A stretch of 64,000 bases of DNA, taken from contig NZ_JAODTL010000046.1 of the NCBI RefSeq assembly GCF_026191375.1, forward strand, positions 1 through 64,000. The letters are read 5' to 3'. The DNA comes from Marinomonas pontica. Lineage in GTDB: Bacteria; Pseudomonadota; Gammaproteobacteria; Pseudomonadales; Marinomonadaceae. Positions 1-5,465 of the stretch are shown here, piece after piece. The position numbers and the translations under genes were made by a program. Numbering within the stretch: the first letter of the stretch is position 1; every line of letters starts with the position of its first letter. Below the pieces are notes generated by a model. The model worked only from the letters and a program-made list of their open reading frames with translations. It did no database searches and had not been told where the DNA came from.

Positions 1-218
1 TAGAACGATTGATTGCAGGTTGCTTTTCAGCGCCCAAACAAACGCGGTTCATGGTTTTGATTACTTCTTCGGGATACGCACCCGCTGCCGTTTCAGCAGA
101 AAGCATGACCGCATCCGTGCCATCTAGAACAGCGTTGGCGACGTCAAATACTTCTGCGCGAGTTGGCATCGCGCTGGTGATCATCGTTTCCATCATTTGA
201 GTTGCCGTAATGACGGGG
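1..218 (-). CDS. Pyruvate kinase, internal fragment
   Basis: On the minus strand this reads in one open frame as the middle of pyruvate kinase, the glycolytic enzyme that makes pyruvate and ATP from phosphoenolpyruvate and ADP. Family motifs are clear: [29 protein letters not shown] and [14 protein letters not shown], closest from memory to the PykA type. The C-terminal side runs off the left edge of the window. The N-terminal half is absent: homology stops abruptly near 218, just before the conserved Val-Ile-Thr, and an unrelated accD sequence on the opposite strand begins. The fragment cannot encode a working enzyme as it stands. I see this as the edge of a real pyk gene joined to foreign sequence, not a natural fusion. 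Confidence 0.85.
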
Positions 219-963
219 CCTAGTGGAAAAATCATTGATACAGAAGAGTTAAAAAAGAACTTATATGTAAGTCCTGAAAGATGGGTATCATGTAAGAATT
301 GGTAGTAAAGAGTATTTCGAATTGTTTGATGACAATAAATTTAAAGAATTAAATGAAAGTTTAACTTCTAAAGATCCTCTTAAATTCGGGAACATAAAAA
401 ATACCCAGATAGACTAAAAGCAGCTCAAGAGAAAACAAAATTGAATGATGCCGTTAAGACTGCAATTGGAAAATCTTTAGGTAGGGACATGGTAATTGCT
501 GCTATGGATTTTGCTTTTATTGGTGGATCTATGGGTTCTGTAGTAGGAGAAAAAATTGCTAGAGTAATTAATTACTCTATTGAGCAAAAAATACCTTTTA
601 TGATGGTTTCAAAATCTGGAGGAGCTAGAATGATGGAAGCTTCGTTATCATTAATGCAGTTAGTTAAAACATCTGCAAAATTAGCACAATTGGCAGAAGC
701 TAAAATTCCTTGTGTCTCATTATGTACAGACCCAACAACGGGTGGTACAACGGCATCATATGCAATGTTAGGTGATATTAATATTGCAGAACCAAGCATT
801 AATTGCTTTTGCAGGACCTAGAGTTAGCAAAAGGCACAGCAGGTAAAGAATTACCAGAAGGGTTTCAAAAATCTGAATTTGTTTTAGAACACGGTTTTTT
901 AGATGCGATATACAAGCGTAAAAACTTAAAAAAACAAGTAAACCTGTTATGACTTCTTCTTGA
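219..963 (+). pseudogene. accD: accD fragment of Bacteroidetes type, frameshifted
   Basis: Encodes most of the carboxyltransferase beta subunit of acetyl-CoA carboxylase, which makes malonyl-CoA for fatty acid synthesis, but in pieces. The longest open piece (441-821) carries [17 protein letters not shown] and [17 protein letters not shown], the conserved carboxyltransferase core. Upstream, [16 protein letters not shown] and then [14 protein letters not shown] read on after a frame change near 274, with a second change near 390. Downstream, AFAGPRV and FVLEHGFLD read only after a change near 800. The first ~35 codons, including the zinc-finger start, are missing. Base composition is far more AT-rich than the neighbours, and the wording resembles Flavobacteriia. 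Both ends cut into genes of the host genome. Most likely a contaminant read used to bridge a gap; a real insertion is the alternative. Confidence 0.8.
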
Positions 964-1245
964 TCCATTAACCAAACAAACATCTTCACCAAGGGAAATC
1001 GCCTCTTCCAGCGTCGTCACCACATCAATCCCCTCTGCTTGATAGGCAGGGTCACGACTGATCACTATGTTGCGACGACCCGGTAGCGGCTTGCCAATCG
1101 ATTCAAACGTCTTACGCCCCATAACAATCGGCTTGCCCATAGTGGCTTGCTTGAAATATTTAAGGTCATTTGGCAAATGCCAAGGCAACGAGTTATTAAT
1201 ACCAATAGTGCGGTTGGTCGACATGGCAACAATAAGGGACAACAT
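964..1245 (-). pseudogene. folA: Dihydrofolate reductase, truncated at the 3' end
   Basis: N-terminal 94 residues of dihydrofolate reductase, which reduces dihydrofolate to tetrahydrofolate using NADPH and supports the neighbouring thymidylate synthase. Visible family signatures are [40 protein letters not shown] and [10 protein letters not shown] chose the ATG at 1245 over the one at 1263 because GAAGG lies a few bases before it and typical DHFRs begin M-x-LSLIVA. The family is about 160-170 residues; here the homology ends at VCLVNG, at the accD junction, so the last ~70 residues are missing. It lies divergent from thyA across about 165 bp. The loss is probably an artefact of the junction, since a folA of normal sequence leads into it. 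Confidence 0.85.
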
Positions 1246-1409
1246 AGGCTTACCTTCATTCATTTTTCACGCTCATCCACTCTTGGGCTTCTTGAGCGTA
1301 CGGGTTCTGATATAATCAATGGCATTTATTATACCCATGACAATCTAGATTGCATTTTCTAACCTGCATTTACCGTATTCGTCATGACCTAAACAGACAA
1401 GGCACACTT

Positions 1410-2261
1410 ATGAAACAGTACTTAGATCTTTGCAACCGCATCGTCAGTGAAGGCGAATGGGTCAACAACGAACGTACAGGAAAACGCTGTCTCACTGTTA
1501 TTAACGCTGACCTTACTTACGATGTAAGCAAAGGCGAGTTTCCGCTTGTCACGACACGAAAAAGCTACTGGAAATCTGCCATTGCCGAAATCATTGGGTA
1601 TTTAAGAGGTTACGATAACGCCGCGGATTTTCGCGCACTCGGCACCAAAACATGGGATGCCAACGCCAACCAAAACGACGTTTGGTTAAACAATCCTTAT
1701 CGTAAAGGCGAAGACGATATGGGGCTTTGCTATGGTGCCATTGGCCGCCATTTCCCAAAGCCTGACGGTGGACACATCGATCTATTAAAGCAAATTGTTG
1801 ATGATCTAAGCCGTGGTGTGGATAACCGTGGGGAAATCCTCACTTTTTATCACCCTGGCGCGTTCCACATGGCGTGCCTTCGCCCGTGCATGTACAGCCA
1901 TCACTTTTCATTGCTTGGTGATACGCTTTATCTAAACAGCACTCAGCGCAGCTGTGATGTGCCACTCGGTTTAAACTTCAACATGGTTCAGGTTTATGTT
2001 TTGCTGGCCATCGTTGCGCAAATCACTGGCAAAAAACCGGGCAAAGCCTTCCATAAGATAGTGAACGCTCACATCTACGAAGACCAGCTAGAGTTAATGC
2101 GTGATGTGCAACTCAAACGCGAGCCTTACCCTCTACCAACACTCAAAATCAACCCAGAAATCAAATCCCTAAAAGACATCGAGACTTGGGTCACCATGGA
2201 CGACTTCGAGCTCGAAGGCTATCAGTTCCACGAGCCTATCGCTTACCCTTTCTCAGTGTAA
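1410..2261 (+). CDS. thyA: Thymidylate synthase
   Basis: Makes dTMP from dUMP with methylenetetrahydrofolate as methyl donor and reductant, in the cytoplasm. The protein is 283 aa, like the longer Vibrio-type ThyA rather than the 264-aa E. coli form. Visible are [14 protein letters not shown] at the N-terminus, the catalytic cysteine at about residue 160 in [11 protein letters not shown], the nucleotide-binding [13 protein letters not shown] and the [10 protein letters not shown] segment. The ATG at 1410 has AAGG about 8 bases upstream; an in-frame ATG at 1350 would add 20 residues with no family match. The gene is divergent from the folA remnant, a sensible pairing because ThyA produces the dihydrofolate that FolA recycles. 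It is followed by a strong hairpin terminator shared with lgt. Confidence 0.97.
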
Positions 2262-2274
2262 GCGACCTAAAAGC

Positions 2275-2310
2275 AAAACGGCGAACCATGATGGATTCGC
2301 CGTTTTTTAT
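2275..2310. terminator. Bidirectional terminator between thyA and lgt
   Basis: Perfect inverted repeat: AAACGGCGAA pairs with TTCGCCGTTT across a 9-10 nt loop, with A and T runs on the two flanks. It lies between the convergent thyA and lgt stops and can serve both strands. Confidence 0.85.
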
Positions 2311-2333
2311 TGAACCAATATAAGCAAAAGACG

Positions 2334-3155
2334 CTAGCTTGTTGCGTTACCACTTTTCGGGAAAACCTGTCGCTTGAAACCCACCACGATTAAACCAACA
2401 CCAATTAGCACCATTGGCAACGACAATAACTGCCCTTGTGTCAGCCAACCGAAAGCAAGGTAACCAATTTGTATGTCTGGCTCGCGGACAAACTCCACTA
2501 AAATGCGAAAAATACCGTAGAAAAGTAGGAACATGCCAGAGACACAATAGCGTGGTTTTGGCCTTTGTGAGAAGAACCACAATATACAAAACAGCACTAC
2601 ACCTTCTAAGGCAAATTGATACAGTTGCGAAGGATGACGAGCAAGCTGCAGCGGATCGTTCGGAAAAATCATTGCCCAAGAAACGTCCGTCGGTTTGCCC
2701 CATAATTCGCCACCAATAAAGTTACCTAAACGTCCAGCGCCCAAACCGATTGGCACAAACGGCGCAAGAAAGTCCGTCACATCAACAAGGTGTTTATTGT
2801 AACGGCGGGCGAAGAAAAACATAGCAGCGATAACGCCCAGCAAGCCACCATGAAAAGACATACCGCCTTCCCAAATACGCACTAAAATCAGCGGATTATC
2901 AACAAAAGCAGGAAATTGATAGAACAATATATATCCAATTCGGCCGCCTAAAATAACGCCAAGCGCCCCATAAAAAATTGCATCACTTACCATGTCAGGC
3001 GTCCACACGCCATTCGAGCGTTTAGCGCGATACATGCCACACAAATAAGCGCCAGCAAAGCCAACCAGATACATAATACCGTACCAATGTACGGAAATCA
3101 GCCCTATCGAGAAGGCAATAGGATCAATGTTTGGGTATGAAATCATAATATTCAA
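2334..3155 (-). CDS. lgt: Prolipoprotein diacylglyceryl transferase
   Basis: Transfers diacylglycerol from phosphatidylglycerol to the lipobox cysteine of prolipoproteins, the first step of lipoprotein maturation, in the inner membrane. About 270 aa with seven hydrophobic segments. Key family motifs: HWYGIMYL near the start, SFHGG (His about residue 102), the Lgt signature GRLGNFIGGELWG (Arg about 142), and RHPSQLYQ. The start is uncertain: TTG at 3155 has AGAGA at good spacing, while the ATG at 3146 fits the family N-terminus but has no close RBS. It follows ptsP by about 20 bp, so rppH-ptsP-lgt is probably one transcript. Lipoproteins elsewhere in the window (FlgP, the choice-of-anchor protein) would be substrates. 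Confidence 0.96.
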   Translation of the reverse strand: MNIMISYPNIDPIAFSIGLISVHWYGIMYLVGFAGAYLCGMYRAKRSNGVWTPDMVSDAIFYGALGVILGGRIGYILFYQFPAFVDNPLILVRIWEGGMSFHGGLLGVIAAMFFFARRYNKHLVDVTDFLAPFVPIGLGAGRLGNFIGGELWGKPTDVSWAMIFPNDPLQLARHPSQLYQFALEGVVLFCILWFFSQRPKPRYCVSGMFLLFYGIFRILVEFVREPDIQIGYLAFGWLTQGQLLSLPMVLIGVGLIVVGFKRQVFPKSGNATS

Positions 3156-3176
3156 AAAATCTCTGGTAGGTAGTAA

Positions 3177-5465
3177 TTAGTCTACGTTGCTGGTTTTAGA
3201 GGGACGAATCAAACGCTCTATGTTCGCTTCGCGCATCAGCCGTGTCATGGTTTGTGTGACCGCTTCAGCATGAGAAAGTGTCATGACTTCATTCAACATG
3301 GCTTGCGCTTGTTGCATCGAGATATTGCGAATCACTGCTTTTACTTTAGGAAGGCTTGTAGAGCTCATGGATAACACATCGTATCCCATGGCCATTAACA
3401 AAATAGCGCCCATCGGATCACCCGCCATTTCACCACACACACTCAAACCTACACCTTCGTCTCGAACCTGATCAACTATGCTAAGCAAAGCACGCAATAC
3501 GGAAGGATGGAAGGAGTTGTATAAATCCGCCACACGCGGGTTATTTCGATCTACTGCCAATAAGTATTGCGTTAAATCGTTGCTGCCGACCGACAAGAAG
3601 TCCACCAATTCAGCCAACTCTTTTACCTGATAAACCGCCGCAGGGATTTCGATCATCACGCCGACTTGAGGCATTTTGACATCAAAGCCCTCTTCTTTCA
3701 CTTCCGCATAACCACGACGGATTAGGGCTAAAGCCTCTTCAACTTCCGCAACATTTGAGATCATCGGCAACATGATTTTTAAATTATACAGACCTGAACT
3801 GGCTTTTATCATGGCTCGAATTTGCGCCATGAAAATTTCCAAATGATCCAGAGTCACTCGAATACCACGCCAGCCTAAGAAAGGGTTGGCTTCGTTTATC
3901 GGGAAATATGGCAGTGCTTTGTCACCACCTATGTCCAACGTTCGAACCGTCACAGGAGACGGTGCAAAGCCTTCCAACTGCTGGCGATAAATCACCACTT
4001 GTTCTGCTTCGGTAGGAAAACGGTCTCGCACCATAAACGGCACTTCCGTTCGATACAAACCAATGCCTTCTGCCCCCCGGTCTAATGAACGAGCAATATC
4101 GGCAGACAAGCCGGTGTTAACAAATAAAGATAAACGTTGACCATCCAATGTTTCACATGGCAAATCTTTAAGTGTTTCATACTCTTCTTCTAACAGTCGC
4201 TCTTCATCAACAATTTGCTGATAATTTTCAATCAAAGCGTCAGAAGGATGGGTGTATATTTTGCCCAAATAGCCATCGACAATAAGGTCGACTTTGTCTA
4301 ATTGAGCATAGGGCAGATCCAGCGCCCCCATCACGGTTGGAATACCCATTGCGCGGGCCAATATCGCCACATGGGAGTTACCAGACCCCATGACAGAAAC
4401 CAAACCTTTGATCTTATCTATTGGAATTTCACCCAACATAGACGCGGTCAGTTCCTCACCAACAATAATCGAAGGCTCGCTAAATCGCTCGGTAAGGTTA
4501 GGGGCTTTTTCCTGCAAATGGGACAAAATCCGACGACCAAGGTCCCTAAGGTCCGACGCCCGTTCACGCAAATATGGATCATCCATGCGATTAAACTGCT
4601 GAATGTGCGCTTGAATAACCTGTCTTAACGCACCTTGCGCCCAATTGCCTTCTTTGATTTTGCGGACAATTTCTCCCGCAATGGAGTTGTCATCTAATAT
4701 TTTCAGATACACATCAAAGAGTGCTTTTTCATCCGCGGATAAATGCTGACTAATACGATTGCTTGCTCGACGAATATCATTACGTACCGCATCAAGCGCT
4801 TGGTAAAAGTCTTGAATCTCTTCATCAAAATCGGTTGTACGACGATCAGGAATAACGTCTAAATCGGCAGGAGGGAAAACAACCACACCACGACCAATCG
4901 CAACACCAGAACTACCAGGAACCCCTTTGTAGCGAAAGTCTGAACCGCTCGGCACGGCATTTGGGTGAAGGTTGGCAATTGCCCCTGTCGCTTCAGCGTG
5001 CGCAATTACTCCGGCTAATTGGGCTGATAAAGTAATAAGAAAGGCTTCTTCCCCTTCATCAAATCGACGCTTGTCTTCATGCTGCACCACCAGCACGCCC
5101 AAAACTTGGCGATGATGAATAATTGGCACACCCAAAAAAGAACGGTAACGCTCTTCGCCTGAACCTTTTAAATAATGAAATGATGGGTGAATATGCGCGT
5201 CTTCAAGGTTCACAGGCTCGGCTCTTCGGCCCACTAAACTGACCAGACCTTCGTCTGCTTTCAAGCTGACGTTACCTGCAACATCGGCGTTCAAACCGCG
5301 CGTCGCCATTAGGACATATTCTTTGCTATTTGAATCCACTAAGTAAATCGAACACACTTCTGCACGCATGGCTCTACGAACACGTCGAACAATAATATCG
5401 AGTGCCGCCGATAAGGACTGCGCCGCAGTCACCTCTTGGGTAATACGTCTTAACAAACTTAGCAT
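3177..5465 (-). CDS. ptsP: PTS enzyme I-Ntr, PtsP (GAF domain plus EI)
   Basis: Phosphoenolpyruvate-protein phosphotransferase of the nitrogen PTS; it passes phosphate from PEP to NPr and on to EIIA-Ntr, a regulatory rather than transport chain. The 762-aa length and layout fit PtsP: an N-terminal GAF sensor domain (about residues 1-160), the EI N-terminal domain with the phosphorylated histidine in GSGNSHVAILARAMG, and the C-terminal PEP-binding barrel with RTLDIGGDK, GWRGIR, GSNDLTQY and VCGEMAG. The ATG at 5465 follows GGGAGC. It sits 15 bp behind rppH, the arrangement seen in many gammaproteobacteria. No defect seen. Confidence 0.97.
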   Translation of the reverse strand: MLSLLRRITQEVTAAQSLSAALDIIVRRVRRAMRAEVCSIYLVDSNSKEYVLMATRGLNADVAGNVSLKADEGLVSLVGRRAEPVNLEDAHIHPSFHYLKGSGEERYRSFLGVPIIHHRQVLGVLVVQHEDKRRFDEGEEAFLITLSAQLAGVIAHAEATGAIANLHPNAVPSGSDFRYKGVPGSSGVAIGRGVVVFPPADLDVIPDRRTTDFDEEIQDFYQALDAVRNDIRRASNRISQHLSADEKALFDVYLKILDDNSIAGEIVRKIKEGNWAQGALRQVIQAHIQQFNRMDDPYLRERASDLRDLGRRILSHLQEKAPNLTERFSEPSIIVGEELTASMLGEIPIDKIKGLVSVMGSGNSHVAILARAMGIPTVMGALDLPYAQLDKVDLIVDGYLGKIYTHPSDALIENYQQIVDEERLLEEEYETLKDLPCETLDGQRLSLFVNTGLSADIARSLDRGAEGIGLYRTEVPFMVRDRFPTEAEQVVIYRQQLEGFAPSPVTVRTLDIGGDKALPYFPINEANPFLGWRGIRVTLDHLEIFMAQIRAMIKASSGLYNLKIMLPMISNVAEVEEALALIRRGYAEVKEEGFDVKMPQVGVMIEIPAAVYQVKELAELVDFLSVGSNDLTQYLLAVDRNNPRVADLYNSFHPSVLRALLSIVDQVRDEGVGLSVCGEMAGDPMGAILLMAMGYDVLSMSSTSLPKVKAVIRNISMQQAQAMLNEVMTLSHAEAVTQTMTRLMREANIERLIRPSKTSNVD

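Follow-up and report, generated by a model that had tools for sequence, protein, structure and literature searches.

Cross-species contamination persists in deposited genomes. As in the contamination treated by Merchant, Wood and Salzberg (2014, PMC4243333), foreign sequence has here stayed in a genome after its assembly and deposition, where it misleads annotation. The locus described below would differ in that the foreign piece is one of three parts of a chimera that ends a contig, next to a fragment of the host's own pyruvate kinase gene (pyk) that is out of place. Judged by titles and the starts of abstracts, the literature on contaminated contig ends and cross-species contamination consisted of general papers, and papers on a joint Marinomonas–Polaribacter project, judged in the same way, offered nothing to the point. 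The nearest counterpart of the foreign piece itself is accD in genome G073, from the genus of Polaribacter marinus, where the gene reads open through 286 codons. Our copy has 96% nucleotide identity to it over the whole piece. It differs in carrying four frame-shifting indels and a 3-base deletion, and in missing both gene ends.

The window, meaning the whole stretch of 64,000 bases that we analyzed, corresponds to bases 1–64000 of an 84,321-base contig (C46), so that window base 1 is also the first base of the contig. The draft genome comprises 3.55 Mb in 62 contigs, with a given completeness of 99.36% and contamination of 0.41%. We put the probability at about 97% that bases 1–948 are an assembly or library artefact, namely a chimeric, low-quality terminal sequence that ends C46. 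The segment is present in the deposited sequence, yet it is most likely not a feature of the genome. The preliminary description of this DNA had proposed a gap filled with an error-rich contaminant read. The contaminant half of that proposal held up well, given a nearest source that is 96% identical and belongs to the Polaribacter marinus genus, the absence of the segment from 15 same-genus genomes, and the natural sequence on a second contig (C22). The gap-filling half did not, because a segment that starts at base 1 of C46 is a contig end and not a filled gap.

Three adjoining pieces and their joins

Profile matches agreed with the earlier picture of a minus-strand pyk piece, an AT-rich accD and a truncated folA adjoining one another. 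The first piece (1..219, minus strand) is a misplaced internal copy of the host pyk. It is identical to C36:4975-5193 at 218 of 219 bases and matches the Pfam PK model (E = 6.7e-25) over about positions 275–344 of 477. It had been taken for the N-terminal half of a cut gene. It is internal instead, and one of its sides is a join while the other is the contig end. The suggestion that the organism would lack this pyk also falls, as the gene on C36 is intact and reads through 486 codons without interruption. Its neighbour there, another long open frame, is presumably glyceraldehyde-3-phosphate dehydrogenase, going by its sequence.

Comparison of the pyk-to-folA spacing in related genomes, which had been proposed as a check, placed the two genes apart. 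With bases 1–3100 as the query, all 15 same-genus genomes matched the pyk piece (matches ending at 217 or 219) and folA (matches from 949) separately. In the three single-contig genomes among them (G014, G015 and G017), the distance between the two genes is at least 1.5 Mb, assuming circular chromosomes.

Homology to Polaribacter covers bases 219–947, and homology to the host begins at 949. At the left join, the single base C219 fits both sources. At the right join, base 948 agrees with neither source; should it be a superfluous T, the two bases after it (AT) would be common to both. The edges of the segment had been placed at 219 and 963. The joins actually lie at 219/220 and 947–949, so that the right edge was 15 bases off. 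The frame break near 963 is a separate one-base insertion at 964 within the folA part. The short overlaps of GGCCT and TCC once assigned to the joins are absent; what is shared is the one base on the left and, on the right, what the reading of base 948 allows. Window bases 1–1700 contain no inverted repeats with a length of at least 12 bases. Two short direct-repeat families occur in the same interval, away from the joins. No known RNA family reached its gathering threshold in bases 1–3200.

Source and condition of the accD piece

The second piece (219..947, plus strand) is a foreign, Polaribacter-like piece of accD, the gene for the beta subunit of acetyl-CoA carboxylase. Its GC content is 30–38% in 200-base windows, versus mostly 41–52% nearby. 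The TIGR00515 model matches it in separate stretches that score 186, 40 and 27 bits where the cut-off is 317. Stop codons lie within these stretches and between them, and the piece holds no full-length open frame scoring above that cut-off. The host's own accD is intact at C22:19176-20027.

The source search supported the earlier description of a foreign accD of Bacteroidetes type and narrowed it to a genus. When the translated central part of the piece (126 residues) was compared with genome contigs, at least 571 of 592 candidate stretches encoded a relative. Among the best 80 of these (at least 571) relatives, the first nine are all titled Polaribacter, with protein identity of up to 91%. 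At the DNA level, 161 of 166 genomes from the genus of Polaribacter marinus (G003) matched the piece. The best match was G073, at 96% identity over bases 1–728 of 729, and the next best reached 87%.

In the alignment with G073, 709 of 735 columns are identical and 8 are gap columns. The four frame-shifting indels (+1, -1, -2 and +1) bear out the count of at least three frame changes given previously. Over long stretches, roughly the final 100 bases among them, the two sequences agree completely. The 19 substitutions in the MAFFT alignment are mostly clustered, and 11 of them are A to G. For comparison we assembled a set of homologues from 86 loci, one of which was left out (match shorter than 600 bases, or missing), giving G073 and 84 others. 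At seven of the 19 positions the base in the window is shared with none of the 84 other homologues, and at the remaining 12 it is shared with at least one. This pattern of substitutions suggests bad base calls more than divergence. Part of the difference from G073 could be true strain divergence, because 12 of the 19 variant bases do occur in other homologues and the piece is identical to no genome searched.

We also searched 24 genomes with the accD segment (the draft itself, 15 of the same genus and 8 of the same order) and obtained three matches, including the draft's own. The other two came from same-genus genomes and were weak, at 71% and 69% identity over about 120 bases; they are possibly those genomes' own accD. 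Since they are too short and weak to be counted as a foreign copy, the foreign accD was found in none of the 15 genomes of the same genus and none of the 8 of the same order. A relative with the same accD is thereby ruled out within the searched set. A megablast search for a plasmid record with near-identical sequence gave no match.

The folA–thyA region and the overlap with C22

The third piece (949..1263, minus strand) is the 5′ part of the genuine host folA, with a DHFR_1 match at E = 1.9e-37. The gene is truncated in the window, as previously described, and its continuation lies on C22. Next to it is the genuine, intact host thyA (1350..2261, plus strand; NF002498, E = 1.8e-173). The open frame listed for thyA includes an upstream extension, and the family match begins at 1413. 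Window bases 949..1653, spanning parts of both genes, correspond to C22:324016-324718, the final 703 bases of C22. The two copies are identical at 691 of 708 alignment columns, and the overlap runs to the very end of C22; it is the likely true join of the two contigs.

The copy of folA on C22 is full length, although in two frames, and further genes lie to its left. This disposes of the idea that the organism would lack folA. In the single-contig relative G014, the gene order is a GGDEF-type gene, a YjbQ-like gene, folA, thyA and lgt, where the GGDEF, YjbQ and lgt names are what we take these genes to be from their sequences. We compared the last 3 kb of C22 with the folA regions of 5 of the 15 same-genus genomes; it aligned as one end-to-end piece in three, as two pieces in one and as four pieces in one. 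Because C22 carries a full-length folA together with the gene order of the relatives, it should join C46 through folA–thyA.

On no single contig does folA form an unbroken frame, as the gene is truncated in the window and split over two frames on C22. What breaks the frame in the window is a surplus base, 964, which is missing from C22 and from all 8 aligned relatives (8 of the 15 same-genus genomes, each covering the region in one match). Across the overlap, positions 964 and 981 are where the window disagrees with C22 and with all 8 relatives, while the differing columns in which C22 stands apart from all 8 lie at 1053 or beyond. Each copy is thus worst towards its own contig end. Judged against the 8 relatives, the frame breaks in folA are probably errors. 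Since the window and C22 copies each depart from those relatives near their own contig ends, we infer that folA is unbroken and intact in the organism.

Origin of the segment and other contig ends

The pieces of the segment have unrelated origins, with originals elsewhere: pyk is intact on C36, and the nearest accD belongs to the genus of Polaribacter marinus. The host sequence from 949 has its natural continuation on another contig, as seen in the C22 overlap over 949–1653, the full-length folA in two frames and the gene order shared with relatives. We propose that two pieces, one from inside the host pyk and one a Polaribacter-like accD contaminant, were joined onto true host sequence starting at 949. 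The joining event would have taken place in the library or in the assembler, and single low-quality reads may lie beneath both contig ends, that of C46 and that of C22. The true chromosome would then run from C22 into C46 by way of the folA–thyA region, and the false overhang of 948 bases probably blocked the merging of the two contigs.

Taken at face value, the deposited sequence reads as a real and recent insertion, in which a fragment of Polaribacter accD, together with a duplicated stretch of pyk, entered a second copy of folA–thyA and were left as pseudogenes. Polaribacter-like relatives of the accD are plentiful, which also agrees with such an event. However, thyA has one full-length match in the genome, plus the cut end on C22, so a complete second folA–thyA copy is not supported, and we rejected a second complete locus on that count. 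A real insertion also fits poorly with an overlap that ends exactly at the C22 terminus and with base differences in that overlap that depart from the relatives in the manner of read errors. As to the signs expected of horizontal transfer or insertion, the arrangement occurs in none of the 15 same-genus and 8 same-order genomes, and bases 1–1700 lack inverted repeats of at least 12 bases. We therefore regard a real insertion as extremely improbable. The same very low probability applies to the corresponding view of the strain, that it carries a second, rearranged folA region which recently received part of pyk and a now decaying accD from Polaribacter, an arrangement absent from the 23 relatives searched.

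Within the artefact reading, the route by which Polaribacter DNA arrived may vary, and a mixed culture could have supplied it in place of cross-talk from another sequencing project. Judged by title, the named Polaribacter genomes related to the piece come from marine isolates or marine metagenome bins, which would point to a shared habitat. The contamination figure given for the assembly argues against a mixed culture. So does the AT-rich start of contig C12: a comparison of its bases 1–1900 with G073, run without a positive control, gave no match. A second Polaribacter piece is not known in this assembly, C12 being the one low-GC contig start compared in this way, and this tells to a small degree against the artefact reading as a whole. 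On balance we consider a mixed culture unlikely, though far more plausible than a real insertion.

For the artefact reading, the relevance of the segment is limited to database hygiene. Because of the false end, the genome seems to contain an accD pseudogene of Bacteroidetes origin, an additional piece of pyk and a folA that is broken, and an ordinary contig join between C22 and C46 is masked. A real segment would amount to a modest example of gene transfer between phyla.

We compared 123 contig-end stretches of the draft pairwise (62 starts and 61 ends, the shortest contig being represented by its start only), with within-contig pairs excluded. Five of the 123 consisted entirely of N and were hence not judged. 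This yielded 18 overlaps of at least 150 bases, 17 of which reach within 9 bases of both contig ends. The overlap between C46 and C22 is the sole one with an overhang of more than 9 bases. One of the 17, C36/C39, looks like a shared repeat and not a join, because it runs in the same direction at both contig starts. Others, for example C56/C53, C1/C2, C14/C40 and C49/C25, overlap by 150–920 bases at about 98–100% identity and look mergeable. With many such mergeable-looking overlaps, the underlying data might have allowed a less fragmented draft.

The contig ends were also screened for low GC content. C12:1-2500 (L110) is an AT-rich contig start, with 31–35% GC in its first kilobase. At C42:69374-71873 (L207), positions 1–285 of an AT-rich contig end have 29% GC. 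This stretch opens with a long run of NSL or IAL repeats in two frames, built on a 9-base unit, which is followed by two open frames of 310 and 282 codons.
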